Below are positions 1-15,383 of a DNA stretch of 64,000 nt, in pieces (position 1 is the stretch's first letter; each line of letters opens with the position of its first letter). The position numbers were made by a program, and so were the translations under genes. The notes beneath the pieces were generated by a model, which ran no database searches, had not been told where the DNA came from, and was given only the letters and a program-made list of their open reading frames with translations. Source of the DNA: Phreatobacter sp. (GTDB lineage Bacteria; Pseudomonadota; Alphaproteobacteria; Rhizobiales; Phreatobacteraceae); contig NZ_JAPZTZ010000016.1 of assembly GCF_027532945.1 (NCBI RefSeq), forward strand, positions 1 to 64,000. Reading direction: 5' to 3'.

Positions 1-89
1 GAGGGGTAATCGCCCTCGTGATCCAGCACCAATCGCACCGCGCGCTCCCGCACCTCGGGAGAGAACTTGTTCGTTGTCTTGCTCGTCAT
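1..89 (-). CDS. IS3-family transposase OrfA, N-terminal fragment (runs off window)
   Basis: The first 29 residues are visible and begin [20 protein letters not shown], followed by VLDHEGDYP. This is the characteristic start of the helix-turn-helix OrfA protein of IS3-family elements, which binds the terminal repeats. In the family a downstream OrfB carries the DDE integrase core, made by frameshifting. The gene continues to the left of position 1, so activity cannot be judged. The start is the ATG whose complement is at 87-89, inside the IS end. Confidence 0.8.
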
Positions 90-140
90 GGCTCCATCCT
101 ATTTGGAAGTTGGAGCCTCCGACAAACCGGGGGCGGTTCA
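1..140 (-). mobile_element. IS3-family insertion sequence, one end (cut by window edge)
   Basis: The outer end lies at 140. Read on the minus strand it begins TGAACCGCCCCCGGTTTGTC, the TGAACCGCCCC-type terminal repeat typical of a large IS3-family group. A transposase start codon follows about 50 bases inside. The rest of the element lies beyond position 1. The stop codon of the neighbouring Mur-ligase frame falls inside this IS sequence, so the element inserted into that gene. The flanking triplet at 141-143 (agg) would be half of a target duplication if the other end could be seen. A decayed relative lies at 15098-15383. Confidence 0.8.
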
Positions 141-1393
141 AGGTGAAGATCTCGCGATCCCTTCAGCAGGATCAGGTCGTCCGTGCCAGCCTGCTGCAGA
201 ATGAGGTCCGCCACGGCCTTGACCGACCTGCCCTCGACGAAGCGGCCGGTAGCGCGATCGTCCTGGCTCGCCATGGACCGGTGCGCGTGGTCGCCGACGA
301 AGATCACCTGATCAGCGGCGTCCCGCGCGTCCCGATAGGCGTCTCGATACTTGGCCTTCGGACTGCCCGTGTAGTCGGATAGCATTCCAAGGACGATGCG
401 CCGGCGCTTGGCCTGCGCATGTCGGAGCACGTCGAAAGCAAGCCCCAGCGTCTGCCAGGGAGCCTTCCACGTATCGAGGATGAAGACAGGTCCCGTACGG
501 GTAGGGAACGGCTGGCACCGGTCGGGAATCGGTTCGAAGCTCGCGATCCTTGCTCGCGCCCTTTCGACAGGCACACCGAGTTCGATGGCCGTTGCGAAGG
601 CAGCCGTTACAGGCAGCCAGAAGTGCTCGCCAAGGATTCGCGTCTCGAGTGGCGTGACATGTCCTTTCCATTCGACCTCGAGGCGAAGGCACTCCGGGTA
701 GCGCGACGCAATTGCGGTCGCCCTGAAGTCGGCGCCAGGCCCTCGCCCGAAGGTGACCGTACGGGCGGTGGTCCCGTGCCGCATGGCCAGCGTCAGATCG
801 TCATCGGCATTGAGGACGGCCAACCCGGTGTCTGACAGCGCTTCGACAAGCTGGCCCTTTTCGGCAGCGATATTCTCGCGAGTCCGGTATTCCTTGTAGT
901 GCTCGATGCCGATGAAGGTGACGATGGCGACATCCGGCTGCACCATCCTCACGACATGCTTGAGATGACCCCTCCGGCCGACGCTCAGTTCGGCGACATA
1001 GTACTGTGTGCTCCGCCTGAGGCGCGCGACCGACTTCACGATGTCGCTGGTAACAACGGCCGACGCCAGCGTCTCCACGCTCCCATGACCCTTGAGAATG
1101 TGAGACAGGAGAAGCGTCGTCGTTGATTTGGCGGAGCTTCCGGTCACCGCAATACAGGTCGCGGTCGCGAAGCGCCGGTTGGCCAGGGCTCCGACAAAAC
1201 GCAGCGTCCGGCGCAGATTTCGTTCGAACAATCGGCCCCAGCGGCGCACCGCTCCGTCCCGATCCAGCACCGACCCGATCACATGGAACCCCGGACTCCC
1301 GAGAGATTGAAGGGCGATGCCATGACGAGCCTCATGCGTTGCAAAGGGATCGTCTGATGCATGGGGAGCAATGAGCAACGCCCCATTCGACAT
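86..1393 (-). CDS. Mur-ligase-family protein (MurF-like), 3' end interrupted by IS
   Basis: The predicted protein has 435 residues. It has a Mur-ligase central domain: a P-loop [10 protein letters not shown] near residues 83-92, an AELS acidic segment, a GIEHYKEY segment, EKGQL, and the LNADDD motif. The C-terminal domain ends [11 protein letters not shown]. Mur ligases use ATP to form an amide bond between a carboxylate and an amine. From about HLE onward the frame reads through the IS end, so the last about 17 residues are IS-derived and the native C terminus is lost. The GSRDLHLE motif normally lies close to the end of MurF-like proteins, so the loss may be small. It is divergent from the PqqD gene. 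An essential cell-wall MurF is unlikely here: the N-terminal region is divergent and no dcw genes are nearby. The start at 1393 was chosen because sequence further upstream does not look like Mur ligase. No strong ribosome site is visible. Confidence 0.75.
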
Positions 1394-1702
1394 CGTCCGC
1401 GCCGGGGATGCAATGCTCGCCGCTCCCCGGTTTGACGCCGATGGCGACGCCCCCCGCAGGTGTTTCCAGCAATGCGCGGCGCGGAAATGACGAGTCCGAG
1501 CCCCTGGTGCTGCGCCCCGAAGGCGCATTTGTCGCGCCAGCAGCGATTCGAATTGTGGCGCAGGCGCTGGTTGGCTATCGGTGTCGGCGTGGTGATCTGG
1601 ATGATCGCGATTGCGGCCTGGCCGTTTCGTGGTCTCAAGGACCAGTTCACGATGCAATTGCCTGCCAGGGTCGCGACAGGCCGCGCGGCAGGTCCGGGAA
1701 AC
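1394..1702. other. Divergent intergenic region between Mur ligase and PqqD gene
   Basis: About 309 bases separate the Mur-ligase start from the most conservative PqqD start, so promoters for both strands should lie here. On the plus strand the PqqD frame stays open back to 1460. From an ATG at 1490 it would encode arginine-rich residues followed by a hydrophobic run WLAIGVGVVIWMIAIAAW, resembling one membrane helix. It is unclear whether this is a real N-terminal anchor or an accident of GC-rich DNA. I see no convincing sigma-70 promoter or terminator. Confidence 0.4.
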
Positions 1703-2008
1703 ATGCGGACAGGGCGACACAATTCCGTGGATATCAGGACGAAGAGCGTGAAACTGGCGCCCACCGCGGCCTTCAGGGCCATGGGGGATGAGGGGGTGAT
1801 CCTCATGACGGATAGCGGCCAGATCTACTCCACCAATCCGAGCGGCACGGCCTTCATCCGGCAGATCACGGTGGGACGTTCGGTGGCCGATGCGGTGAAT
1901 GCTGTGCTGGACGAGTTTGATGTGGGGGAGGATGTTCTCCTGGCCGACCTGGAAGAGCTGGTCACTTTCCTGGAGGCTGAAGGGGTTGTCGTCACTACCG
2001 GTTCCTGA
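1703..2008 (+). CDS. PqqD-family peptide-recognition protein (RiPP recognition element)
   Basis: The 101-residue protein (from the ATG at 1703) has the PqqD winged-helix pattern: GVILMTDSGQIYSTNPSGTAF, then a helix ending VLDEFDVGEDVLLADLEELV, then a final strand GVVVTT. PqqD-like proteins bind the leader of a precursor peptide and present it to modifying enzymes. In lasso-type clusters this is protein B1. The best-fitting neighbours are the B2-like protease and HprK-like kinase that follow directly, matching the HprK/PqqD/nucleotidyltransferase sets known from Proteobacteria. The likely partners are the five small peptides at 6819-7510. The start is uncertain: the frame is open to 1460 and could add a membrane-helix-like segment. 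Confidence 0.8.
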   Translation: MRTGRHNSVDIRTKSVKLAPTAAFRAMGDEGVILMTDSGQIYSTNPSGTAFIRQITVGRSVADAVNAVLDEFDVGEDVLLADLEELVTFLEAEGVVVTTGS

Positions 2009-2048
2009 CCTTCGGGAGGGGCTGCCTGACAGCGGCCGGGCAGCGCGG

Positions 2049-2432
2049 ATGCGTCGCCTGATGTGGTGGCACGCCCGGATGCTGCCCGCCATCGTCGGCA
2101 GGCGGGATCTGCAGGCGGTCCTGCGCTATGCGGATGTTCGGCCCGACCCGCGCTTCGCCGGGATTCCCGCCGAGGCGATTGCCGGATGGGTGATAGCAGC
2201 CACGCGCAAGCCGTGGCTGATGCGCAAGCGCCGCTGCCTGCGCCAGGGCCTTCTCGGCATGCGGTTCATGCGCCTGGCCGGACACGATCCGGAACTGCAT
2301 TTCGGTATCGAAAGGCAGTCCCTCGCACGACCCGCAGTCGCAGCTCACTGCTGGGTGGTCCTCTCCGGCAGGCCTGTTCTCAACGACATCCTCGAGGACA
2401 TGGAGCCTCTGCATGTCTGGCGGCCGGCATGA
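2049..2432 (+). CDS. Lasso B2-like transglutaminase-fold cysteine protease
   Basis: The 127-residue protein matches the lasso peptide biosynthesis B2 family, which cleaves the leader from the precursor. The catalytic set is visible: Cys63 in RRCLRQG, His100 in AHCW and Asp113 in LND. Order and spacing agree with the family, which is usually about 130-150 residues. The N terminus is uncertain: ATG 2049 lacks a clear ribosome site, and an in-frame TTG at 1986, overlapping the PqqD gene, would give 148 residues. The stop overlaps the start of the kinase gene (ATGA at 2429-2432), indicating translational coupling. No B3/C macrolactam synthetase gene is found in the window, so cleavage may serve a non-lasso product. 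Confidence 0.82.
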   Translation: MRRLMWWHARMLPAIVGRRDLQAVLRYADVRPDPRFAGIPAEAIAGWVIAATRKPWLMRKRRCLRQGLLGMRFMRLAGHDPELHFGIERQSLARPAVAAHCWVVLSGRPVLNDILEDMEPLHVWRPA

Positions 2433-3442
2433 CCGGCCCTGAGACCCGCTTCGATCTTCACACCGTCGAACTGATCTGCGCGATGGAAGACCTCCCCGCC
2501 AGCGCGGAGCACGCAGCGATGCTGGACTGGCTCATCGGCGAGCGGCGGATCGAGACACCTGGCGACCTGCCGAAGGCGCGCTTCACGGTCCGACGGGCCG
2601 GCAAGGACGGGCTCGCGCTTCCGGCGGACATGGTCGAAATGCCTGTCGCCGATGGAGGTCGGCTGAGAACCGGACGCACGGCCGACGGCCACCCCGTGCT
2701 GGCCTTGGAGGAGGCCGTCTGCCTGAGGCTGCTCCCCGGCGGTCACAGCCTGCTGGAGGCAGCGCTCCAAGCGGACCGGCTTCTACCCGCGCTTGGCGAT
2801 GCCACGATTTTCGCGCTCGACCACGCGCTGTCATCCAATGGCCAGTGTCTCGCCCATGCCGCCTGCCTCGCGACCCCGGATGGCCGCGGCATGGTGATGC
2901 TCCATGCCGCCAGCGGCACTGGCAAGACGACGACGGCGATGGCGCTGGCGCTGGCCGGCTTCCGCCTGTCGGGCGATGACACGACGGCGCTTCTGTCGCC
3001 AGGCGGATCCGGGCAGCTCATGGGCTGGGGCTTGCCGCGCGGCGCCAAGGTCCATCGCAGAACGGCCGACATGCTGCCGGCCTTGCGGAAACTCGTCAGC
3101 GATGACGCATGGGATCGTCATGGCGAGCAGATGATCAGCCGGTCGACGCAGCATGGTGCAGGCCTTGCCACAGACGCCGGCCCGCTGCCTGTCATCGGCG
3201 TCGTGTCCCTCGCTCATGCGGACGAAGGGACGAGCCCCTACACCGTGCAGGGCGCCTTCGAAGCCCTCGAATCCTTGATGCGTGACAACATCAGCCCTCA
3301 TCCGAATGGCTTTTTCCCAGGTCATGAGGCGCGCTTCGACATCTTTTCGTCGCTCGTCTCGGCCACCAGGTGCCTCCGCGTCCCGGTGCGCGGCCATCCC
3401 TCCGAGGTCGCCGCCACCATCGCCGCGGCGCTGGGCTATTGA
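2429..3442 (+). CDS. HprK-like (HPr kinase-related) kinase
   Basis: The 337-residue protein has a P-loop ASGTGKTT at residues 161-168, followed by the acidic GDDTT about 20 residues later. This is the arrangement of the HPr serine kinase C-terminal fold. The N-terminal half (about 1-145) is not the canonical HprK N domain. Such HprK-related proteins occur next to PqqD and nucleotidyltransferase genes. Some act on peptides, as lasso-peptide kinases phosphorylate a serine. Here a Ser or Thr of the tandem peptides is a plausible target, by inference only. The start overlaps the upstream stop by ATGA. Its 3' end overlaps the convergent nucleotidyltransferase gene by seven bases. Confidence 0.78.
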   Translation: MTGPETRFDLHTVELICAMEDLPASAEHAAMLDWLIGERRIETPGDLPKARFTVRRAGKDGLALPADMVEMPVADGGRLRTGRTADGHPVLALEEAVCLRLLPGGHSLLEAALQADRLLPALGDATIFALDHALSSNGQCLAHAACLATPDGRGMVMLHAASGTGKTTTAMALALAGFRLSGDDTTALLSPGGSGQLMGWGLPRGAKVHRRTADMLPALRKLVSDDAWDRHGEQMISRSTQHGAGLATDAGPLPVIGVVSLAHADEGTSPYTVQGAFEALESLMRDNISPHPNGFFPGHEARFDIFSSLVSATRCLRVPVRGHPSEVAATIAAALGY

Positions 3443-4443
3443 TCGTCCGCCGCTGCGTGCCGCTTCTGCTGCCAGCGAAAGGCGAAGCGTCGGAAGCGCG
3501 AGCGGATATCGCCGCGCAGATGTGCGTTGGTGATCGTGTCGCGGTCGAGCCAGCGCGGCGTGTCCATCAGGCTGGCGAGCCCGTTGATGGGCGCGTCGGC
3601 CTGGGCGTCCGGAAAAAGGCGGCCGACGAGGCTGGCCGCAGCCGCCAGTTCATAGGTGAGGTCCAGTTGGCGGGCGGCCGCGATGGCCTGCGGCATCGCG
3701 CCCCCGAGCCTCCTGATCGCCTGAAGCACGTCGACGGCCAGTTTCAGCTGGTGGAACTTGTGCCCGATCGCGCCATGGACCACCGCGGTGAGGAGATGCC
3801 CCGAAGCGGGGGAAGTGCCGCCATAGTCGGCGATCTCGACCTGTTGAAAGCCGAAGGTCACGCGCCGGCGCATCGCCGGCAGGTGAACCAGGTCCGTATG
3901 GACCTCGATCAGAAGATGCGGCTCGCCCTCCCGTATCCACTTCTGCTCGCGGTAGATCTCGGCCTTTTCCGGCCGCGGCAGGACGGCCAGTGCGAAGCCC
4001 GACGCGACCATGGCGGCACCGACGTCGTCGAGCACCGCCGCGGGAACGAGGATATCCACATCGGTGTAGGGCCGGTCCGAGATCTGCGGATAGAGCGCTC
4101 CGGCGAAGGCTGCGCCCTTCACCAGTCTGTGCGGCAGCCCTCTGGCTCTCAATTCATGAACGATGCGCGCCGCGTGAGCCTCAAGCATCATGGTCACGCC
4201 CGTGGCGACACGAACCCGCTCGGTTAGTGCCTCCATCGCTCCGGCCCAGCCATGGCCGGGGATGCCCGACAGTGGCGAAAGCTTGCGCCAAACGGTGGCT
4301 TCTATGGCGTGGTAGCAGACAAGATCGACCAGGTCCGCAGGCTCGAAGCAGGAGAGTTCCCCTGCCTCGGGCGCGGGCACCTCGGGGTCAGCGAGATGGC
4401 AGAGCAGCGCCTGCTGCCGCGGGTCAAGCCGTCGACGTGTCAT
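3436..4443 (-). CDS. Nucleotidyltransferase family protein (NTP_transf_5-like)
   Basis: The 335-residue protein has the signature LVKGAAFAGALYP (about residues 108-119), then TDVDILVP with the metal-binding pair Asp128 and Asp130. This is the core of the uncharacterised nucleotidyltransferase family often found beside HprK-like and PqqD-like genes and in lasso clusters. The active-site residues are intact, but its substrate is unknown. It is the last gene of a four-gene minus-strand operon (ligase, GNAT, ACP, this gene). Its start lies 20 bases inside the ACP gene. It ends tail to tail with the kinase gene. Confidence 0.75.
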   Translation of the reverse strand: MTRRRLDPRQQALLCHLADPEVPAPEAGELSCFEPADLVDLVCYHAIEATVWRKLSPLSGIPGHGWAGAMEALTERVRVATGVTMMLEAHAARIVHELRARGLPHRLVKGAAFAGALYPQISDRPYTDVDILVPAAVLDDVGAAMVASGFALAVLPRPEKAEIYREQKWIREGEPHLLIEVHTDLVHLPAMRRRVTFGFQQVEIADYGGTSPASGHLLTAVVHGAIGHKFHQLKLAVDVLQAIRRLGGAMPQAIAAARQLDLTYELAAAASLVGRLFPDAQADAPINGLASLMDTPRWLDRDTITNAHLRGDIRSRFRRFAFRWQQKRHAAADDQ

Positions 4444-4690
4444 GGGCAGCGGGCCGGCCGGCAGGAATGGATGCGAGGAAGTCTGCGATCGCTCCGACGC
4501 TGAGCAAGCCAGCGACCCTGTCGTGTGGAATCACACCTCCGGCGCGTTCCTCCAGGGCCAGCATGATGTTGATATGCACGATACTGTCCCAAGCCTCGGT
4601 ATTGAGTACGCCCGTATCGGCTCCAACAACCGCGGGGTCCACTTGCAGGGCCTCAGCCACCATCTGGCGCGCATCCTCAAGCGGCGACAA
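4424..4690 (-). CDS. Acyl carrier protein
   Basis: The protein has about 88 residues. The carrier-protein motif is AWDSIVHINIMLALEE, in which the Ser of DSI carries 4'-phosphopantetheine, followed by a helix ending VGAIADFL. The TTG at 4690 is preferred as start because GAAGGAAGG lies at good spacing; GTG 4696 and ATG 4663 are alternatives. It overlaps the end of the GNAT gene and the start of the nucleotidyltransferase gene. With the AMP-dependent ligase and GNAT of the same operon it forms a plausible set: ligase loads an acyl group on the carrier, GNAT transfers it to an amine. That pathway is inference. Confidence 0.8.
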   Translation of the reverse strand: MSPLEDARQMVAEALQVDPAVVGADTGVLNTEAWDSIVHINIMLALEERAGGVIPHDRVAGLLSVGAIADFLASIPAGRPAAHDTSTA

Positions 4691-5279
4691 GGGCACCTTC
4701 CTTCTCCCAGGCATCGACAGACCGCCGCAGGGCATCGCCCCGCAAAGAGAAGACCAGGAAGTCCGCGGGTTCATCGCGGAACTCGTCATAGGCCGCCATG
4801 GGGCTGGCCCCCACATGTTCGAAGCCCAGTTTTCCGTAGTTGAGAACCGAACCGAAATTGCGCGAATGAACCAGGCTGAGCATCTGCTCAAGCCCGGCCT
4901 GGCGGACCAGGACAATGATCAGAGCCTTGCGAACCTCGGGGACCACGTCTCGGCCCCACCAGGCCCTCTCGCCGAGGATGACCTCGAAGCCTGCAGTCCT
5001 GAAGGGGATCAGGCGGGTCGAATGGGTACCGATCACGGCCTTCGTGGTCCGATCGACGATCGCATGATGGAACCGTGTTCGCCCGTTCGCCCGGCCTATC
5101 CGTCGAAAGGACCGCCAGAGCGATGGCGGCTTGCGGTGCAAGGTGAGCAGGGCGCGGATTCCATCGTCCTTCAGGTAGCGATGTTGCAGCCGGGCCATCT
5201 GCCAGCGGGTGATCGGCTTCAGCACGAAGCGCGGCGTCACGATATCGCCCATCAGCGCCTCGATACGCCGCCGTCTCAT
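4677..5279 (-). CDS. GNAT-family N-acyltransferase
   Basis: The 200-residue protein resembles RimJ/RimL-type GNAT enzymes: a strand-turn GFEVILGERAWWGRDVV (about 95-115), the helix EVRKALIIVLVRQAGL, then VHSRNFGSVLNYGKLGFEHVG, the usual CoA-side motif with Asn and the KLGF turn. Members transfer an acyl group from CoA or a carrier protein to an amine. It lies between the AMP-ligase gene (4-base ATGA overlap at its start) and the ACP gene (overlapping its end), so acyl-ACP is a reasonable donor. GNAT maturases that acylate peptide side chains are known from selidamide-type RiPPs. Lysine-rich peptides encoded 1.5 kb away are candidate acceptors. Confidence 0.75.
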   Translation of the reverse strand: MRRRRIEALMGDIVTPRFVLKPITRWQMARLQHRYLKDDGIRALLTLHRKPPSLWRSFRRIGRANGRTRFHHAIVDRTTKAVIGTHSTRLIPFRTAGFEVILGERAWWGRDVVPEVRKALIIVLVRQAGLEQMLSLVHSRNFGSVLNYGKLGFEHVGASPMAAYDEFRDEPADFLVFSLRGDALRRSVDAWEKEGALVAA

Positions 5280-6703
5280 CCTGTGCTCCCCGGTCCGGCC
5301 ACGAGCGCGCGCACCTGGTCGCGCAGCACCTTGCCACGTTCATTACGCGGAATGTCCGGCACGACAAACAGGCGCACCGGCACCGCCTCGGCGCGCACCT
5401 GGCTGCGGCACCAGGACCGGAGCGCCGCGACGTCGAGATGCCGGCCGGCGATCGGAACAACCGCGGCTGCCACGGCCTCGCCGCTGGCCGGATCCGGCAG
5501 GCCGAAGGCGCAGGCTTCCGCAACGTCGGGATGACGTTCCAGCATCATGTCGATTTCCTCGGCCTGAATCTTGATGCCGGCACGGTTGATCTCGAACTTG
5601 ATCCGGCCGACCAGTGTCAGCCCGCCATCGTCATCGATCTCCCCGATATCGCCGGTTCGAAACCAGGGACCGGCGAAGGCGGCCCGCGTCGGGTCGGGCT
5701 GGTCCAGATAGCCGCTCATGATGGACGGTGACAGCACCACGGCCTCGCCGCGCCCCCGGTCTCTCACCTGTCCGTCGCCGTCCAGTACGGCGATCCGGCC
5801 GCCCCATGGCCGGCCGACATAGCCATCGCGGCCGCGGGCCTCGCTGAGCGGGGCGCCCCCGATCCAATTGGCGGTCTCCGTCATGCCGAACATGTTCCAG
5901 ACATCACCTGTACCGGACCATCCCGCGATCGCCTCCCATTGCGGTAGGGACAGAGGCGAGGACCCGACATGAATGCGTCTCGGCGGTCGCTGCGGCGGTG
6001 CAGACATCCGCATGGCGAGCTTCCAGAAGGCTGGAACGGAGCTCATGAAGGTGATGGATTGATCCGACAACCGCGTCGCGAAATCGACCAGTTCCGCCGC
6101 CGTCGGGGAGGTCCAGAGATGCAGCCTTCCGCCAGCGGCAAGCGGCGTCAGGCAGTTGCCGATCAGACCGTGGCCGAAGAAGACCGGCAGGACACAGAGC
6201 GTTTCGGTTAGCGGCGCTGGCCCGATCGCCGCAAGATTGAGTGCGATCCGGGCATGAAGACTGCGCAGTGTGTGGACGATCCCCTTCGGCACCCCTGTGG
6301 TGCCAGACGTCATCAGCACCAGCGCCGGATCGTCCGGATCTGATGGTCGAGGTGCCTGTCGATGCGCCGAGCGCCGGGACAGCAACACCTCGGGGCCGTC
6401 GCTGCCGATCCAGACGGACGGACGGGCGCGGGCGACAATGTTTGCCCTCTCGACAGTTGTAATGGCCGGATTGACGACGATTGCCGTCAGGCCGGTCTCC
6501 CACGCCGCGAACATCCACAGCAGCGCGTCGGCCGCGCCGGCAGGCGCGATGACACAGCGGTCTCCGCGCGCGACACCGTTCCGTAAGAGGATATTGCCCC
6601 TTGCGCGCGCCTCCGCCTCGATGTCGTGCCCGGTCCATCCTTGGCCGGACCGCAGGTCAACCATTGCTGCCGATGACGGGAACATGGCGGGAAGTATGCT
6701 CAT
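5276..6703 (-). CDS. AMP-binding acyl/aryl ligase (class I adenylate-forming)
   Basis: The 475-residue protein carries the adenylation motifs in order: LMTSGTTGVPKG (residues 130-141), MFGMTET, WFRTGDIG, GRIKFEINRAGIKI, and the C-terminal NERGKVLR with catalytic Lys458. The enzyme activates a carboxylic acid as acyl-AMP and passes it to a thiol, CoA or a carrier protein. The ACP two genes downstream is the likely acceptor. It is first in a minus-strand operon and its stop overlaps the GNAT start (ATGA). At 475 residues it is somewhat shorter than many acyl-CoA synthetases (about 500-550), matching stand-alone carrier-loading ligases. The substrate cannot be read from the sequence. Confidence 0.85.
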   Translation of the reverse strand: MSILPAMFPSSAAMVDLRSGQGWTGHDIEAEARARGNILLRNGVARGDRCVIAPAGAADALLWMFAAWETGLTAIVVNPAITTVERANIVARARPSVWIGSDGPEVLLSRRSAHRQAPRPSDPDDPALVLMTSGTTGVPKGIVHTLRSLHARIALNLAAIGPAPLTETLCVLPVFFGHGLIGNCLTPLAAGGRLHLWTSPTAAELVDFATRLSDQSITFMSSVPAFWKLAMRMSAPPQRPPRRIHVGSSPLSLPQWEAIAGWSGTGDVWNMFGMTETANWIGGAPLSEARGRDGYVGRPWGGRIAVLDGDGQVRDRGRGEAVVLSPSIMSGYLDQPDPTRAAFAGPWFRTGDIGEIDDDGGLTLVGRIKFEINRAGIKIQAEEIDMMLERHPDVAEACAFGLPDPASGEAVAAAVVPIAGRHLDVAALRSWCRSQVRAEAVPVRLFVVPDIPRNERGKVLRDQVRALVAGPGSTG

Positions 6704-6818
6704 GTGCGATATCTAGGGCACGGTCCGGCAAAGAGTCTGCTATTGCTCAATCGTCGCATTGACTCCATCGCCAATGATTGCCTCTGATGCGCGCTCTCCG
6801 CGTCAAGGATGGATCACG
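6704..6818. promoter_or_regulatory. Divergent promoter region between ligase operon and peptide genes
   Basis: These 115 bases separate the minus-strand ligase operon from the first small peptide gene on the plus strand, so both promoters should be here. A short inverted repeat TCAAT/ATTGA with a six-base spacer spans 6747-6762. A TTGACT hexamer begins at 6759, but no good -10 box follows at the expected spacing. The function is inferred from position only. Confidence 0.35.
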
Positions 6819-6914
6819 ATGAAGAAGCTCTACGTCAAGGCCGCGGCCCAGAAGCGCCAGCCTCTGACGGCGGTCACCGCCGGCAAGCCGGTATCTTTCG
6901 GCAAGCCCGTCTGA
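6819..6914 (+). CDS. Tandem small peptide 1 (putative modified-peptide precursor)
   Basis: It encodes 31 residues, beginning MKKLYVKAAAQKRQPL and ending AGKPVSFGKPV. It shares the KRQPLTAVTA..KPVS block with the four following copies but has the most divergent tail. The peptide is strongly basic with no Asp, Glu or Cys. AAGGATGGA lies about ten bases before the ATG. Conserved front and variable end are typical of RiPP precursors, but no leader/core boundary such as a double glycine is visible. It is the first gene after the divergent promoter region. Confidence 0.7.
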   Translation: MKKLYVKAAAQKRQPLTAVTAGKPVSFGKPV

Positions 6915-6955
6915 CGGATCGCGGGAACTCTCGTTCGGCAGACAGGAGGCCTGAA

Positions 6956-7060
6956 ATGGTGATCACCAAGAAGACCTATGCCAAAGCGGTAGCCATGAAG
7001 CGCCAGCCTCTCGCGGCGGTGACGGCCATCAAGCCGGTATCCGGCGCCGCGCTCGGATGA
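6956..7060 (+). CDS. Tandem small peptide 2 (putative modified-peptide precursor)
   Basis: It encodes 34 residues: MVITKKTYAKAVAMKRQPLA, then AVTAIKPVSG with tail AALG. A strong ribosome site (ACAGGAGG) lies nine bases upstream, as in the other copies. There are no acidic residues and no Cys. It is the only copy with Ala instead of Thr after KRQPL. The gap to peptide 1 is 41 bases, so one transcript probably covers all five. Confidence 0.72.
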   Translation: MVITKKTYAKAVAMKRQPLAAVTAIKPVSGAALG

Positions 7061-7104
7061 CGCTGAGCAGTTGGCACTCTCTATCGAGGGACAGGAGGCT
7101 TGAA

Positions 7105-7209
7105 ATGGCGATGATCAGGAAGGCCTACGTCAAGGCCGCGGCCCAGAAGCGCCAGCCTCTCACGGCGGTGACCGCTATCAAGCCGGTCTCAGGGCCCGTC
7201 GCGACCTGA
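7105..7209 (+). CDS. Tandem small peptide 3 (putative modified-peptide precursor)
   Basis: It encodes 34 residues, starting MAMIRKAYVKAAAQKRQPLT and ending IKPVSGPVAT. ACAGGAGG precedes the start. The DNA from AAGCGCCAGCC through GGGCCCGTCG is identical to copy 4 for over 50 bases, so the two are a recent duplication that diverged at the last few codons. No acidic residue or Cys is present. In copies 4 and 5 the first ATG here (Met-Ala-Met) is changed to ACG, shortening them to the second Met. Confidence 0.74.
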   Translation: MAMIRKAYVKAAAQKRQPLTAVTAIKPVSGPVAT

Positions 7210-7259
7210 TGGCCTCAAAGGGGCCAAGCTTGTCGACAGCTAGGAGGCTCGAAACGGCC

Positions 7260-7358
7260 ATGATCAAGAAGACCTATGCCAAGGCGGTAGCCATGAAGCG
7301 CCAGCCTCTCACGGCGGTGACCGCTATCAAGCCGGTCTCAGGGCCCGTCGACTTCTGA
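7260..7358 (+). CDS. Tandem small peptide 4 (putative modified-peptide precursor)
   Basis: It encodes 32 residues, starting MIKKTYAKAVAMKRQPLT and ending KPVSGPVDF. It is the only copy with an acidic residue (Asp31, next to last). TAGGAGG lies upstream, and the spacer before it contains the palindrome TGTCGACA. The core DNA matches copy 3 almost exactly while the last codons differ, showing that variation is concentrated at the C terminus. Confidence 0.74.
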   Translation: MIKKTYAKAVAMKRQPLTAVTAIKPVSGPVDF

Positions 7359-7408
7359 TGCCCCCAAAGGCGCCAAGCTTGTCGACAGCCAGGAGGCTCG
7401 AAACGGCC

Positions 7409-7510
7409 ATGATCAAGAAGACCTATGCCAAGGCCGCAGCCATGAAGCGCCAGCCTCTCACGGCGGTGACCGCCCTCAAGCCGGTCTCAAAGAATATTTC
7501 ACAGCAGTGA
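7409..7510 (+). CDS. Tandem small peptide 5 (putative modified-peptide precursor)
   Basis: It encodes 33 residues, starting MIKKTYAKAAAMKRQPLT and ending LKPVSKNISQQ. The tail KNISQQ is unlike the others. CAGGAGG lies upstream and the spacer is nearly identical to the one before copy 4, including TGTCGACA. It is the last copy; the formyltransferase gene follows on the same strand about 100 bases later. Confidence 0.73.
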   Translation: MIKKTYAKAAAMKRQPLTAVTALKPVSKNISQQ

Positions 7511-7612
7511 CGGCGCCTTTGGCCTCTGGCCGCACCGGTCAGTGGTACGATTGGTCCGGCGGCGACGATATGTCTTGCGGTCCGAGGATCCGCGGCGCCA
7601 CGCCGCAGAACG

Positions 7613-8713
7613 GTGGATGATGGAACGAAAGCCAGGCCGCTACCCATCCGGCATGGAGCTTCGCGAGCCGTTGCCTCCATTGCCCTGGCACTCGGCCGGC
7701 ATGGCCGCTGGACTCAACGCGTGTCTGGCCTTTTGAACCCAGTCTCCGGTTCCGGCGACGCGCCTGTCGATTGCGTGCTCGTCGCAGACCCCGACGCCAT
7801 GGGAGCCATGGCGATGGACGCTCTTCGGGCTGGCGGCTATCGGATCGTTGAAGTGTGGACGTCCGGCGTCGAGACCCCATCGGGCGCCATGTCCCGCATC
7901 GCGTCTCTTGCCTCTGCCCGCCAGCGCGCGGCCTCGAGGGTGCTGTCCAGAGCGGCGGCCCCGGTTCGCCGCTTGCGCCGTCCCTGGGCAGCGAGCCTTG
8001 ATAACGCGTTGGAGGCTGCCCCGGCCTTCGACGTGCTTGTTTGCGCAGGGTCGCAGATCATCTTTCCGGCCGCCTTCCTGGAGCGCCTTCGGGGGCGCGC
8101 GGTCAATCTCCACCCCGCCCTGCTGCCGCATTACCGCGGCCCGAGGCCCCTCCATGCCCTGCTGATCGATGGCATGGCCGACACGTATGGCGGCATGACG
8201 CTTCATCTCATCACCAGCGAGATCGACGGGGGCCCCATCATCGGCCAAAGGCGGGTAGGGCTTGTTGATCATGGCACGCCGGACAACTGGCAAAGGGCCG
8301 TGATGGAGACCATGACGCCGCTCCTGGCCGATGATCTGCGTGCCTATCTCGCCGGCAGGCGCGAGCCTGTGCCGCAGCTGTCCGGCTCCGGCAGCTACCA
8401 GGCCTTGCGTGACGTGCCGCTTCATGCCGCGCCCGACCAGACGGTGGACCGGATTGCCCGTTACCTTGCGGCTGCCGCGGGAATGCAGCGCCACGCCATG
8501 GCGGTCCTGCCCGACCCGCACCGGCCGCGTCGCTTCGTCGTCACCGGAGGCGTGCGGATCATCGGCCGGCCAACGGGCGAGGCACCGGTCGTCAGCCTCG
8601 GCCATGTCGAATTCGACGCCTTGGATGCGCGGATCAGGATCCGGCGAATGACCCGTCCGGAGCGGCTCCTTCGCAAGATTCGCCGCCGTCTTGCGGCCGT
8701 CTTCCGTCGCTGA
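7613..8713 (+). CDS. Formyltransferase-family protein
   Basis: The protein has 366 residues from the ATG at 7613; a GTG at 7721 is an alternative start. The formyltransferase core is clear: NLHPALLPHYRG with Asn165 and His167, then TLHLITSEIDGGPII with Asp205. This is the Asn-His-Asp set used by GART, methionyl-tRNA and sugar-amine formyltransferases with 10-formyltetrahydrofolate. The C-terminal part (about 270-366) is not the usual Fmt domain and ends very basic. A housekeeping Fmt would normally sit with def, so this is more likely a specialised enzyme. Lying directly after the peptide array, it may formylate a peptide amine or a small donor molecule. The acceptor is unknown. Confidence 0.75.
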   Translation: MDDGTKARPLPIRHGASRAVASIALALGRHGRWTQRVSGLLNPVSGSGDAPVDCVLVADPDAMGAMAMDALRAGGYRIVEVWTSGVETPSGAMSRIASLASARQRAASRVLSRAAAPVRRLRRPWAASLDNALEAAPAFDVLVCAGSQIIFPAAFLERLRGRAVNLHPALLPHYRGPRPLHALLIDGMADTYGGMTLHLITSEIDGGPIIGQRRVGLVDHGTPDNWQRAVMETMTPLLADDLRAYLAGRREPVPQLSGSGSYQALRDVPLHAAPDQTVDRIARYLAAAAGMQRHAMAVLPDPHRPRRFVVTGGVRIIGRPTGEAPVVSLGHVEFDALDARIRIRRMTRPERLLRKIRRRLAAVFRR

Positions 8714-8883
8714 GAGCCCGATCGCCGCGGGGCTCTGGCACACGGCAATATTCGCGGCGTGTCACCCGCCGGCAGGCCCTCGCTCATGCCGGGCTTGCTC
8801 CAGCGCATCCAGAACGACGCTGGCTCGGGCCGTCGTCGCGGGGTCGTCAAAGTCGCCGAAATCAATGCACAGGGAAGCTTCTC

Positions 8884-9792
8884 TCAGCCTCGATCGTCAC
8901 GTAGGCGTCGATCGGGAAGCTGCGACCCGGCCCTCACGAAGGCCTGAACGGCGGGTGATGTCTCCCCCTGACGCGCACCGATACAGACCTCGACGGCCTC
9001 GGGTCCATCGCTGATGCGCAGGAAGCGGACGCCTCTCACACCGAGGCGAGCCGCCACCTCCGGGACAAGTGCGACGCCCAGGCCGGCCGAGACAAGACCG
9101 ACGACCGTGTGGATCTGCGTCGCCTCCTGAACGATGGGTGGCGTCACGCCGGCCCGGTCCAGGGCGCCGGTGACGCGCGCATGGAACATCGGGCTCGTCA
9201 ATTGCGGAAAGCCGATCATCGCCGTGGTGGCCAGATCGCGCAACGATACCATCTGGCGCGCGGCGAGCGCCCAGTCGTCGGGGACGGCCAGCAGAAAATG
9301 CTCGCGGCCGATGGTTGTGAAGCAGAGGCCCTCGACGCCCGACACCGGCCGGAGGATGCCGACGTCGATTTCACCGGCAACGAGGGCGGCAGCCTGCTCG
9401 ACCATCGTCATTTCCGAAAGGTCGAGCACCACCTGCGGATGATCATGCGCGAACAGGCGCAGCAGTTCCGGCAAAGTGCCGTAGGTCGAGGAGTGAATGA
9501 ACCCGATACGAAGGCGGCCCGACTTTCCTTCGGCGATGGCACGCGTCTCGTCGCTGGCGCGACGGAGATCGTCGAGAATGCGCCGCGCCCGCGGCAGCAG
9601 GGCGGCGCCCGGTCGGCTCAGCACGACGCGGCGCTGGCTGCGCTCGAACAACACGGCGCCGACGTCGTCCTCCAGTTCGCGGATGCGTCGACTGAGATGA
9701 GGTTGAGCGATGCCGAGGCGCGCCGCTGCCCGGCCGAAGTGAAGATCCTCGGCGAGAACGACGAAGCTGCGCAGGCGAACGATATCCATCAT
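8884..9792 (-). CDS. LysR-family transcriptional regulator
   Basis: The 302-residue protein has the LysR helix-turn-helix at the N terminus (LRSFVVLAEDLHFGRAAARLGIAQPHLSRRIRELE) split over about residues 7-45, a linker helix, and a substrate-binding domain beginning LRIGFIHSSTYGTLPELL. Its length is typical. It is divergent from the RraA/Ldh/Bug/HIBADH operon with 97 bases between, and a perfect LysR-type palindrome overlaps its start. It therefore probably controls that operon and itself. The 170 bases after its stop, up to the formyltransferase, hold nothing I can identify. Confidence 0.92.
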   Translation of the reverse strand: MMDIVRLRSFVVLAEDLHFGRAAARLGIAQPHLSRRIRELEDDVGAVLFERSQRRVVLSRPGAALLPRARRILDDLRRASDETRAIAEGKSGRLRIGFIHSSTYGTLPELLRLFAHDHPQVVLDLSEMTMVEQAAALVAGEIDVGILRPVSGVEGLCFTTIGREHFLLAVPDDWALAARQMVSLRDLATTAMIGFPQLTSPMFHARVTGALDRAGVTPPIVQEATQIHTVVGLVSAGLGVALVPEVAARLGVRGVRFLRISDGPEAVEVCIGARQGETSPAVQAFVRAGSQLPDRRLRDDRG

Positions 9793-9810
9793 GATACGAT
9801 TACCGTATCA
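9792..9810. promoter_or_regulatory. Probable LysR operator (perfect palindrome)
   Basis: Arms TGATACG and CGTATCA are perfect inverted repeats around a five-base spacer. The inner part fits the LysR T-N11-A rule (TAC...GTA). It overlaps the start of the LysR gene and lies about 80 bases before the RraA-like gene, the expected place for an autoregulating LysR activator. Confidence 0.7.
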
Positions 9811-9889
9811 AAGGTGCTCTTTCAATTTATTGGACGTCTGTTTGGCCCTGTTCATACTCCCTGCACAAGAAAAGCGTCGGGGAGAGCAC

Positions 9890-10558
9890 ATGAGCATCGG
9901 TTTTCGCGTGCGGCCGCGGGTCTCCGCGGACAAGGCCCTCGTCACAGGCTTCGATGGGGTCCCGACCTCCATCGCCTCCGACAATATGGGTCGGCTCTTT
10001 GCCGGCGGCTGCGGTCTGAGGCCTTTGCACCGCGGCGGCGCGCTCCTCGGCACCGCTTTCACCGTTCGCACCCGACCCGGTGACAATCTCATGGTCCATA
10101 AGGCGATCGACATGGCCGAGCCCGGCGATGTCGTCGTCGTCGATGCGGGCGGCGACCTGACCAATGCGATCATCGGCGAGATCATGCTGTCGATCGCCGC
10201 ACGCCGCGGCCTTGCCGGCTTCGTCATCGACGGGGCGGTCCGTGACACCGACCATATCGGCGCCTCGTCGCTGCCGGTCTATGCGCGGGGCGTTTCTCAC
10301 CGCGGTCCCTACAAGGACGGGCCTGGCGAGCTGAACGGACCGGTGAGCGTCGGCGGCATGCCGGTCATGCCCGGTGACATCATTCTCGGTGACGCCGACG
10401 GGATCCTCGCCATTCCGCAGGCTGACGCGGCTGAGGTCGCCCGCCTCAGTCGCGCGCAGATGGCACGTGAGCGGGCGATCCTCGACTCCATCGCCGACGG
10501 CACGATCGATCGCTCCTGGGTGGACGCCACGCTGAAGGCGAGGGGGTGCTCCCTATGA
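9890..10558 (+). CDS. RraA-like / HMG-type aldolase family protein
   Basis: The 222-residue protein belongs to the RraA/4-hydroxy-4-methyl-2-oxoglutarate aldolase fold. Visible motifs are HKAIDMAEPGDVVVVDAGGD, the GE pair at residues 96-97 and the Arg-Asp pair of DGAVRD (118-119), which in aldolases hold substrate and metal. Catabolic members cleave or decarboxylate short oxo-acids. Its place in an operon with an Ldh-type dehydrogenase, a Bug receptor and a hydroxyisobutyrate-type dehydrogenase supports organic-acid catabolism rather than RNase E regulation. The start is the ATG after GGGGAGAG. The stop overlaps the next start (ATGA). Confidence 0.85.
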   Translation: MSIGFRVRPRVSADKALVTGFDGVPTSIASDNMGRLFAGGCGLRPLHRGGALLGTAFTVRTRPGDNLMVHKAIDMAEPGDVVVVDAGGDLTNAIIGEIMLSIAARRGLAGFVIDGAVRDTDHIGASSLPVYARGVSHRGPYKDGPGELNGPVSVGGMPVMPGDIILGDADGILAIPQADAAEVARLSRAQMARERAILDSIADGTIDRSWVDATLKARGCSL

Positions 10559-11646
10559 CCCGCTACGCGCCCGAGGTTCTGACCGCCTTCTGCACGGACG
10601 TGCTCGTTGCGAGCGGCGTGAGGCAACCCGTGGCCGCCACGGTAGCCGCGTCGCTCATCTACGCGGACGTGCGCGGGGTTGATTCCCACGGCGTTCTTCG
10701 CCTGCCCATCTATGTGCGCCGGGTGCGCGAGGGGATGGTGGATGTCGAGCGGGAACCGGGGATCATCGAGGATCGCGGTGCCACGGCGCTCCTCGACGGC
10801 GGCAACAATTTCGGCGCCTATGTCGGTCAGAAGGCCCTCGACCTCGCCATCGAGCGGGCGCGACGGCACGGGGTGGCGACCATCGCCGTGCGCCGCTCCA
10901 ACCATTTCGGTACCGCCGCCTATTTCGCTGAACAGGCGGCGGCCGGCGGTCTGATCGCCGTCATCGTCTCCAATGCGTCGCAGACAATGCCGCCAACGGG
11001 GGGTGTCAGGCCGTTTCTCGGCACCAATCCGCTGGCTATCGCCGCCCCCTCTGGTGGTGTCAGCCCGTTCCTGCTCGACATGGCGACCAGCCAGGTCGCG
11101 CGTGGCAAGATCATCGCGGCCGCACGGCGGGGCGAGCCGATCCCGGAGGGCTGGGCGATCGATGCGGCGGGTCAGCCGACCCGCGACGCCGAAGCGGGCC
11201 TTGCCGGCGCCGTGCTGCCTTTGGGCGGCGCCAAGGGCTATGGCCTGTCCATGGCCATCGACATCTTGGCGGGCGTGCTCACCGGCGCCGGCTATGGGCC
11301 CTATGTGCGCAACATGTACGAGGATTGGGACAACCCGCAGGATGTCGGCCATGCCTTCATCCTCATCGACATTGCCGCCTTCATGCCGCTGTCGTCGTTT
11401 GTCGCCCGCATGAGGGAATATCTGGGCCTGCTGAAGACCGAGCCACGGGCGCCCGGCGTTGCCGAAATCCTCTTCGCCGGCGAGTACGAGCACCGGCTGG
11501 CGGAGGGGACCCGCGAAAGCGGCATCGCGCTTTCCCCGGCGCTCGTCCAGGAACTGGCCGTGCTGGCGAAGGACCTTGCAGTGGCCCCGCCGGTGCCCAT
11601 TGTCACGCCCCTCGATCTGCGTGGCGCGGCCGCGGCCGGAAGTTGA
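10555..11646 (+). CDS. Ldh-family NAD(P)-dependent dehydrogenase
   Basis: The 363-residue protein is of the malate/L-lactate/ureidoglycolate dehydrogenase family (not Rossmann-type LDH). Motifs include DVRGVDSHGVLRLPIYVRR near residues 40-60, RRSNHFGTAAYF, and FLGTNPLAIAAP, with the family's catalytic His in DSHG and in SNHFG. These enzymes oxidise 2-hydroxy acids or reduce oxo acids with NAD(P). The start is set at the ATG overlapping the RraA stop; another ATG at 10546 adds three residues. Confidence 0.9.
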   Translation: MTRYAPEVLTAFCTDVLVASGVRQPVAATVAASLIYADVRGVDSHGVLRLPIYVRRVREGMVDVEREPGIIEDRGATALLDGGNNFGAYVGQKALDLAIERARRHGVATIAVRRSNHFGTAAYFAEQAAAGGLIAVIVSNASQTMPPTGGVRPFLGTNPLAIAAPSGGVSPFLLDMATSQVARGKIIAAARRGEPIPEGWAIDAAGQPTRDAEAGLAGAVLPLGGAKGYGLSMAIDILAGVLTGAGYGPYVRNMYEDWDNPQDVGHAFILIDIAAFMPLSSFVARMREYLGLLKTEPRAPGVAEILFAGEYEHRLAEGTRESGIALSPALVQELAVLAKDLAVAPPVPIVTPLDLRGAAAAGS

Positions 11647-11697
11647 CCGATCAATCGTGAAGTCGCCGCAGCGCGACACCGTCAAGGGAGGAATGCC

Positions 11698-12651
11698 ATG
11701 TTCGACCGCAGGCAGGTTCTTGGTCTCGCGGGATCCGCTGTCCTGGCTCCGGCCATCTCGGCCAGGGCCCAGTCCGGCTGGACCCCCGATCGCCCGATCA
11801 CGCTCATCGTCGGCTTCCAGGCCGGCGGCGGGACGGATGTGACGGCGCGAACGACCGCGCAGGCGGCAGAGGGCATCTCGCCGGTCCCGGTGGTCGTCGT
11901 GAACCGTCCGGGGGCGGCTGGAGCCATCGCCGCCGAGTTCGTGGCGCGGGCCGAACCGGATGGCCATACGATGCTGATTGGCGGCGGGAGCGAAAGCACG
12001 ACCCTGCCGCACTACAATCGCCTCAACTACAAGCTTGAAGATTTCCGCGGTATCGCCCGCGTCAACCGGGAGCACATGGTTCTGGTCACGTCCTCGAAAG
12101 GCGGCATCAACTCGGTCGCCGAACTGGTGAGACGCGCCAAGGCCGATCCCGGCAAGCTGACCTATGGGTCGTCAGGTCAGGGCGGTATTTTGCATGCCGC
12201 GTTCCAGGCGCTCGAGAAGACCGCGGGCATCCAGATGACCCACGTCGCCTATCGGGGCGGCGCCCATGCGTTCCAGGATGTTCTGGGCGGCCGGCTCGAC
12301 ATGACGCTGCTGACCCCGGCGGAGGCGAAAAACCAAGCCGATGCAGGAAATGCCTTCATCCTTGCAACAACGTCCAATCGCTCTGGCATCCTGCCAGAGA
12401 CCCCCTCGCTGACCGAGGCGGGAGTCGCCGTCAACATCGAGAACATGAAGGGGCTGATGATCTCCGCCCGCACCCCCGAACCGGTGATCGCCTATCACGA
12501 GGCGCTGTTTGCCCGCGTGCTGCAGAGCGACCGCATGAAGGAACTGGCGCAGCGGACCAATCTCGACCTCGCCTATCTCAATGGCGCGGGCTTCATGAAG
12601 GCCATGGACGACACGTCACGTGCCGTGCTGGCTGCCAAGAGAGACGCCTGA
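11698..12651 (+). CDS. Bug/TctC-family periplasmic solute-binding protein
   Basis: The 317-residue protein begins with a twin-arginine-like or Sec signal (MFDRRQVLGLAGSAVLAPAI...RAQ). It has the Bug signatures PDRPITLIVGFQAGGGTD, NRPGAAGAIAAEFVARAEPDGHT and the YRGGAHAFQDVLGGRLDM loop. Bug proteins bind carboxylates in the periplasm, often for a TctAB importer. No TctAB gene lies nearby. AAGGGAGG is seven bases or more upstream of the start. It sits between the Ldh and hydroxyisobutyrate-type dehydrogenase genes, so it probably captures that pathway's substrate. Confidence 0.93.
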   Translation: MFDRRQVLGLAGSAVLAPAISARAQSGWTPDRPITLIVGFQAGGGTDVTARTTAQAAEGISPVPVVVVNRPGAAGAIAAEFVARAEPDGHTMLIGGGSESTTLPHYNRLNYKLEDFRGIARVNREHMVLVTSSKGGINSVAELVRRAKADPGKLTYGSSGQGGILHAAFQALEKTAGIQMTHVAYRGGAHAFQDVLGGRLDMTLLTPAEAKNQADAGNAFILATTSNRSGILPETPSLTEAGVAVNIENMKGLMISARTPEPVIAYHEALFARVLQSDRMKELAQRTNLDLAYLNGAGFMKAMDDTSRAVLAAKRDA

Positions 12652-15097: not shown

Positions 15098-15383
15098 TCA
15101 ACGGGCCGTCCGGCTCACCCGCGAACCCACGATGTGCCGCTTCCAGGTGTCGATGACGACGGACACGAAGACGAAGTCTGACCACGTCGAGTGATCGGCG
15201 CAGCCGCGCCTGGCGGCAATCGAGGCGCAAGCGTCCTAAACACCAGGACTGCTCAGCCTCCTGGACCGGTCCAAGCCGTACCGGGCGCGCGCTGACCGCA
15301 GGTAAAAACAGGTTCGTGAGCTTGCTCGTCATGGCTCCGACCCAGCTGGACTTTGGAACCCCCCGCAGACCCGCGGCGGTTCA
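15098..15383 (-). pseudogene. Decayed IS3-family element with internal deletion
   Basis: The outer end at 15383 reads TGAACCGCCGCGGGTCTGCG on the minus strand, then a start codon and MTSKLTNLFLPAV, a degenerate OrfA start resembling the element at 1-140. About 100 bases later a fragment reads TWSDFVFVSVVIDTWKRHIV followed by GSRVSRTAR and a stop at 15098. This matches the OrfB integrase core (TWSGF.YV.FVID..RRIVGWRVS). The middle of the element is deleted and no second terminal repeat was found, so it is inactive. Together with the 99 bases to kdpE, which hold no gene, it fills the gap 15093-15482. Confidence 0.72.

Follow-up and report, generated by a model that had tools for sequence, protein, structure and literature searches.

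A candidate gene cluster for ribosomally synthesized and post-translationally modified peptides (RiPPs) was analyzed at the start of contig C27 (NZ_JAPZTZ010000016.1, 134 kb) of Phreatobacter sp. (genome of 4.13 Mb, labelled G000). The window, i.e., the whole stretch under analysis, comprises the first 64 kb of this contig. Pfam and NCBIfam scans of nine cluster proteins confirmed all of the genes named in the initial annotation at positions 86–8713 (Table 1), with the kinase and the acyl carrier protein (ACP) scoring below the curated cut-offs. These cut-offs (in bits) were 24 for Mur_ligase_M, 23.4 for PqqD, 33 for lasso_biosyn_B2 (NF033537), 31.2 for NTP_transf_5, 25.4 for Acetyltransf_3, 29.9 for AMP-binding (the ligase reached 166.8), 26.1 for Formyl_trans_N, 200 for TIGR04352 and 20.8 for PP-binding. 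The PqqD, B2, HprK-like and nucleotidyltransferase (NTase, PF14907) genes are referred to below as the cassette, and the AMP-ligase, GNAT and ACP genes as the triad. A lasso cyclase (macrolactam synthetase) was not found in the cluster by the Pfam scan.

Table 1. Features at the start of the window, with the evidence for each
Feature	Position	Strand	Evidence
IS3-family element end	1..139	-	contig C34 ends in the same 139 bp; 83.5% to annotated plasmid IS3 family transposases
MurF-like amide ligase	86..1393	-	PF08245 93.6 bits, PF02875 31.4; MurF structures E 2e-28; 88% to G003
PqqD-type RiPP recognition element (RRE), start uncertain	1703..2008	+	PF05402 46.7 bits; 92% to G003
B2-type (transglutaminase-like) leader protease	2049..2432	+	NF033537 50.2 bits
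HprK-like kinase, putatively acting on peptide	2429..3442	+	TIGR04352 24.7 bits, below cut-off; P-loop
NTP_transf_5 nucleotidyltransferase	3436..4443	-	PF14907 87.8 bits; structure model
ACP, WDS site	4424..4714	-	PF00550 17.2 bits, below cut-off 20.8
GNAT acyltransferase (Acetyltransf_3)	4677..5279	-	PF13302 33.9 bits
AMP-forming acyl/amino-acid ligase	5276..6703	-	PF00501, PF13193; sister of G053 ligase
Precursor peptide 1, core GKPVSFGKPV	6819..6914	+	open reading frame (ORF), leader comparison
Precursor peptide 2, core IKPVSGAALG	6956..7060	+	ORF, leader comparison; AGGAGG upstream
Precursor peptide 3, core IKPVSGPVAT	7105..7209	+	ORF, leader comparison; AGGAGG upstream
Precursor peptide 4, core IKPVSGPVDF	7260..7358	+	ORF, leader comparison; AGGAGG upstream
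Precursor peptide 5, core LKPVSKNISQQ	7409..7510	+	ORF, leader comparison; AGGAGG upstream
Formyltransferase, start at GTG 7613 or further inside (uncertain)	7613..8713	+	PF00551 66.8 bits; 66% to G003

In agreement with the initial annotation, which placed the five small genes between two divergent modules, they are co-directed and flanked by the divergent AMP-ligase and formyltransferase genes. Each encodes a peptide of 31–34 residues, in which the leader consensus [KR]KxYxKAxAxKRQPLxAVTA, common to all five, is followed by a core that begins with xKPVS and continues as a variable tail. A conserved leader with a variable core beside modifying enzymes is the arrangement of RiPPs in general. 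Peptide 1 alone has no AGGAGG before it. Single-base codon differences in the leaders were synonymous in 36 cases and non-synonymous in 19 between window peptides, and 133 and 52, respectively, between the window and the congener G003 (in both comparisons the pairs are not independent); random single-base changes would be 26% synonymous. With this synonymous excess, with ribosome-binding sites and with four homologues that accompany the same enzymes in G003, the peptides look coding, and, judging by sequence, they are genes. The earlier suggestion of five tandem precursors in a RiPP-like cluster is therefore well supported.

The leaders end, in the lasso manner, in VTA, with Thr at the penultimate position, which is a trait of lasso precursors according to the accessible part of a published account (PMC10368454). 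The cores are tiny and share an invariant Ser. This residue occurs among the first six core positions in all 18 peptides compared, the next commonest, P and V, being present in 12 of 18.

Recurrence of the cassette and the precursor peptides

The peptides were searched in 12 genomes of the genus, the peptide model and the NTase in 199 genomes of the order and the AMP-ligase in 397; a class-level sample of 385 genomes served for the AMP-ligase clade, the formyltransferase and an NTase profile. Within the genus, strong peptide matches were obtained in G000 and G003 only. It was in G003 that the recurrence of a peptide array beside the same enzymes, named in the initial annotation as support for its reading, was found: this genome has the cassette and four peptides, three in the cluster and the fourth beyond the Mur gene. 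In addition to the values in Table 1, identities to G003 were 74% for the NTase, 80% for the kinase and 88% for B2. The AMP-ligase, GNAT and ACP were absent at the G003 locus, and no AMP-ligase of this clade was found in its whole genome.

In the order, the NTase was found in 8 of 199 genomes, our own included, with the full cassette at all eight loci. A kinase scan of named genomes gave at least eight loci, and among the matches listed six of eight carried the full cassette (five Mesorhizobium and one Rhizobiales isolate). The cassette locus of the Mesorhizobium genome G078 was 83–89% identical in DNA to named Mesorhizobium and Rhizobiales records, which identifies the order as the one that NCBI calls Hyphomicrobiales. 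At the class level, the NTase profile matched 5 of 385 genomes, four of them weakly, and one of these loci, L098 (L-numbers denote fetched genome stretches), has a weak PqqD match nearby.

The genome G053 belongs to another family of the same order. Its AMP-ligase (50% identity), GNAT (32%), ACP and NTase follow the gene order of the window, and a single copy of a peptide, MNTKIKKAYAKPSIEKRVKISTVVSA plus core, is encoded divergently from the ligase. With itself left out of the model, this peptide (L040) was recovered at E 0.0078 as the sole match among 590 fragments.

Across the 199 order genomes, the peptide model added one genome, G078, which, like G113 and G143, is a Mesorhizobium with the cassette. 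On contig C22 of G078, one 18-kb stretch (L026) encodes, at 6833–12059, four leader-type peptides whose tiny cores are rich in Cys and Ser (ACTPSTCPV and IACPISQCGD, for example). The initial annotation had counted homologous peptides without any of the enzymes as evidence against its reading; this holds in part for L026, where no cassette gene occurs within the 18 kb and the cassette lies on another contig of the same genome. It is possible that the L026 peptides are RiPPs processed in trans in Mesorhizobium.

Two further observations concern single loci. At 5857–6252 of L039, beside the cassette, a possible leader peptide is fused to a phage-tail chaperone-looking (S74-like) domain. An HprK-like kinase match (30%) without other cassette genes lies at 10001–10435 of L082, from a metagenome-assembled genome of Candidatus Sysuiplasma, which we take to be an archaeon.

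Proposed pathway and related systems

On balance, we lean towards a lasso-derived, cyclase-less RiPP cluster that would make short linear phosphopeptides. By analogy, it may best be regarded as an alphaproteobacterial, B2-processed counterpart of the linear polyphosphorylated peptides (LPP) of Bacillota. In the proposed pathway, the PqqD-type protein would bind the leader (KKxYxK...KRxxLxxVTA) and present it, as its family and the leader motif suggest. The HprK-like kinase would then phosphorylate the invariant core Ser (residue 5, IKPVS), as the LPP and paeninodin precedents suggest. The NTase may add a sugar, nucleotide or phospho-sugar to the phosphate, judging by a fold known from a model. 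B2 is proposed to cleave directly behind the last Ala of the leader, which adjoins the conserved Thr(-2). In the last steps, a free amine, located either at the newly formed peptide N-terminus or on a phosphate-linked amino sugar, might be formylated by the formyltransferase and/or acylated by the chain leading from AMP-ligase through ACP to GNAT, and the MurF-like ligase might join an amino acid or a similar compound to a carboxylate (the C-terminus or a sugar acid). We infer phosphorylation, NTase extension, B2 cleavage and tailoring from the LPP and PsmN precedents, the core Ser, the NTase model and the relatives of the formyltransferase and Mur ligase.

The P-loop of the kinase is conserved (GTGKTT), Cys and His of B2 are kept in 14 of 14 aligned sequences with a variable third position, and the DxD residues of the NTase are invariant. 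No solved relative of the NTase was found by sequence (profile of six NTases, best E 0.075), and Foldseek gave no match to its model under E 0.001; FKRP, at E about 0.5, was not leaned on. The model itself (predicted local distance difference test, pLDDT, 89) appears to resemble nucleotidyltransferases, with MenT1 (Z 10.4, root-mean-square deviation 3.0–3.1 over 166) and ANT(2'') (Z 8.9, 3.4–3.6 over 146–162) ranked (VIA) in a second look at the Foldseek matches.

According to the accessible part of the LPP report (Nat Commun 2026; PMC13381572), these systems, described there as restricted to Bacillota, have an RRE, an NTP-transferase and an HprK-like kinase (LppK) that phosphorylates core Ser3 of a linear peptide, without a cyclase. 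To that extent, the combination noted in the initial annotation has a precedent. Removing lppN is described in the same part of the report as having no visible consequence, and its authors suspect that a partner is located elsewhere than in the core cluster (PMC13381572). As far as this account allows comparison, the cluster shares with LPP a discrete RRE (PF05402 above cut-off), an NTP-transferase (PF14907 above cut-off, LppN itself being uncompared), the lack of a cyclase, a leader Tyr motif and a Ser near the core start. An HprK-like kinase may be a further common trait; its match lies below the TIGR04352 cut-off, and its likeness to HPr kinases covers the P-loop stretch only. In contrast, neither the SipW-like SpI peptidase nor the MsbA-like exporter of LPP has a counterpart among the nine cluster proteins, with B2 present instead of the former. 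The LPP leader motif YxxPxVLxHQxIxFETxxS also differs from the window consensus, and here the cores are very short, the peptides are in tandem, the host belongs to Alphaproteobacteria, and a Mur ligase, a formyltransferase and the triad are added.

Paeninodin and pseudomycoidin, in the accessible part of the account, likewise have a kinase acting on Ser (with an NTase in pseudomycoidin), B2 and T at leader position -2, but the window cluster has no macrolactam synthetase and mostly no ring acid, and its Ser is internal rather than C-terminal (PMC9266682). Lasso peptides share the split B1/B2 with the cluster, which lacks their macrolactam synthetase (C). An HprK-related kinase beside a PqqD-like protein is also seen in HPr-rel-A, which we take to be the system name for TIGR04352; however, the window kinase reached 24.7 bits against the cut-off of 200. 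In the acylation of nostolysamides, a GNAT reportedly plays a role. In the available part of their description, these are lanthipeptides acylated on Lys (PMC13060382). The idea that ribosomal peptides can be acylated is not new; in the present cluster, the GNAT stands together with an AMP-ligase and an ACP.

For the whole gene set, the initial statement that no described pathway combines it has held in the open-licence literature, subscription papers lying outside the search. Lasso, HprK and NTase combinations yielded no account of this set there, no RiPP with a Mur ligase was found, and nothing relevant appeared on RiPPs with a formyltransferase or an acyl triad. Novelty appears to lie in the combination, the host group and the tailoring, the core machinery being known already. 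Should the tailoring proposed below prove correct, this would be, as far as the open-licence searches show, the first RiPP route to employ both a dedicated ACP and a Mur ligase, and linear phospho-RiPPs would extend beyond Bacillota with a different leader protease. The extra enzymes may be the kind of missing partner suspected in the accessible part of the LPP report (PMC13381572). Their small size puts the peptides within reach of simple mass spectrometry.

Several observations weigh against the linear phosphopeptide proposal. The kinase match to TIGR04352 covers 56 residues only, and no Pfam family was above its cut-off; the kinase profile search was topped by HPr kinases at E 0.0035, with a structure match confined to the P-loop stretch. 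The 18 Ser-bearing cores are related copies that fall into five or six independent groups, and their starts were assigned by hand. In place of the KP of YxxP (the RRE motif) seen in other leaders, all five from the window carry KA. No exporter was found among the cluster proteins by the Pfam scan. The initial annotation would also have been weakened by enzymes conserved without peptide arrays, and this is partly the case: no peptide was detected at 8 of 13 cassette loci (L035, L037, L038, L076–L079 and L081). Of the other five, L036 and L039 are counted as weak because their peptides, the latter S74-fused, were missed by left-out models, as was the second L080 peptide. A model built from the nine window and G003 peptides alone matched none in the other 12 cassette loci.

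Tailoring modules and alternative explanations

The one combined enzyme set of the initial annotation stood only for its core, i.e., the cassette with the peptides; the Mur ligase/formyltransferase pair and the triad are not obligate and come and go separately. G000 and G003 alone have the pair inside the cluster; the triad accompanies the cassette in the window and G053, occurring elsewhere without it. Because natural variants with and without each module exist (window, G003, G053), the module steps could be separated by experiment. Tentatively, and with less than even odds, the phosphopeptide may be finished by cell-wall- or glycan-type chemistry: a peptide ~10 residues long would be worked on by a MurF-type ligase, a formyltransferase and an acyl group carried by the ACP. 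The two sites considered for this tailoring, a sugar or the peptide ends, are equally likely, and each taken singly is doubtful.

In the first case, the peptide would be a glyco-phosphopeptide: the NTase adds a sugar to phosphoserine, the formyltransferase and GNAT modify its amine and the Mur ligase its carboxylate. PsmN is reported, in the accessible part of the account, to add one or two hexoses to phospho-Ser of pseudomycoidin (PMC9266682). At 3824–15794 of L064 (G482), the triad module stands in a pseudaminic-acid-type locus with PseB, PseC and PseG above cut-off, which suggests that an amino sugar is acylated there with the help of the ACP; in G522, genes resembling PseB and PseC, with scores under the cut-off, are found close to the ligase. 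The formyltransferase counts the sugar enzymes PseJ and ArnA among its solved relatives, but PurN outscores them, and linear gramicidin synthase has a formyl domain that scores not far lower. The Pfam scan of the cluster proteins also revealed neither a glycosyltransferase nor a sugar-nucleotide gene. A structure prediction for the formyltransferase (pLDDT 41, two sequences) was not used.

In the second case, a formyl or acyl group would cap the new N-terminus of the freed core and the Mur ligase would add an amino acid at its C-terminus. The GNAT falls in PF13302, a family of RimL type known for acting on protein N-termini, and the gramicidin synthase domain is consistent with such capping. 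The formyltransferase alone in G003 and the acyl module alone in G053 could be alternative N-caps. Against this stands the occurrence of the same acyl module with amino-sugar genes in G482.

Among the 385 class genomes, the formyltransferase search found our own copy only (the G003 copy is outside that sample), and none was found at the cassette loci L035–L040, the fetched stretches being all that was searched for it in the order. The Mur ligase is not limited to the genus: in a search of 21 genomes, it was found in G000 and G003, at 44–49% identity in G078, G113 and G143, and at E 9e-21 in G167, in what we read as a housekeeping cell-wall cluster. At E 1e-20, none was found in the 10 congeners without the cassette, in G053 and G086, which have it, or in G750, G134 and G067. 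In Mesorhizobium, the enzyme is located away from the cassette and has neither a peptide nor any further cluster gene within 14–20 kb; it may be functionally linked to the cassette or simply be common in Mesorhizobium. These stand-alone MurF-like ligases (L108 9354–10658, L109 9212–10516 and L110 2883–4193) are near genes that, by our reading, are glucose-6-phosphate dehydrogenase-like and Edd-like.

That the triad is an unrelated passenger within the cluster seems unlikely. Its ligase clade, present in 14 of 385 class genomes (our own included) and 5 of 397 order genomes (our own, G053 and three without the cassette), is indeed mostly found away from RiPP genes: within the 12–20 kb fetched, no cassette was near any of the other 13 class loci or the three further order loci. 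Ten of these 13 have a GNAT and a WDS-site ACP, two an ACP only and one neither. No leader peptide was found in the 16 cassette-less AMP-ligase loci or in the rest of the window, and G003 does without the triad. However, the window and G053, from different families, share the order AMP-GNAT-ACP-NTase, close packing and a divergent peptide. Moreover, their ligases are sisters in the tree (support 96/90), with the cassette-less G750 next (100/99), which points to one recruitment. From the mostly cassette-less occurrence and these sister ligases, the triad appears to form a portable module for acyl activation and transfer that joined the RiPP cassette probably a single time. Against plasmid records, the AMP-ligase reached at most 33.4% identity among the matches listed (20 of 2022), and the NTase and kinase had no match. 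In two genomes of one family, an ATP-grasp-looking protein adjoins AMP-GNAT-ACP (L061 10768–11916 and L062 7970–9133); it had no NCBIfam match at 1e-8.

It is similarly improbable that the window holds a decaying, non-functional copy, a suspicion raised because the Mur gene is truncated and the first start codon is lost in peptides 4 and 5. The IS3 element end at window 1–139, with which the contig begins, replaces the Mur tail after LHLE (~window 138). Yet the other reading frames of the cluster are open, the leaders show the synonymous excess, and, before its interruption, the MurF likeness extends over 4ziy as far as residue 464 of 474. The best solved match of the Mur enzyme begins at residue 39; within the 668-residue ORF at 86–2092, Mur likeness starts only from about residue 234 (ATG at 1393).

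An ordinary lasso cluster with its cyclase encoded elsewhere is very improbable and was rejected: B1/B2 and the leader T(-2) are lasso-type and one full-length Asn-synthase is present in G000 (contig C19) and likewise in G053, but the cluster has no cyclase, G003 with its four peptides and core genes gave only a weak partial PF00733 match (positions 18–172 of 354, E 1e-8), and the ring acid is missing in most cores, Asp or Glu occurring at core positions 7–9 in only 2 of 9 window and G003 peptides.

Mobility of the cluster

The flanks of the G003 cluster (L022 1–7085 and 14958–19901) lie ~130 bp apart on contig C4 of G000, where the cluster is missing; in G000 it is found elsewhere, on C27. 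The C4 site is near-empty, not perfectly so, with ~1.9 kb of its own sequence within the left flank. Since the G003 cluster occupies a site almost empty in G000, the cluster is movable. Window positions 138–4455 and L022 10102–14420 are 82% identical in DNA and the formyltransferase genes 73%, the triad being extra in the window. The stretch with the G003 Mur tail and fourth peptide had no DNA match in the G000 genome. In G003, extra sequence beside the formyltransferase gene (L022 7086–8425) contains, by our reading, a TadG-like ORF. In the window, a partial copy of the IS3 end, 72% identical to positions 1–139, lies at 15277–15382.

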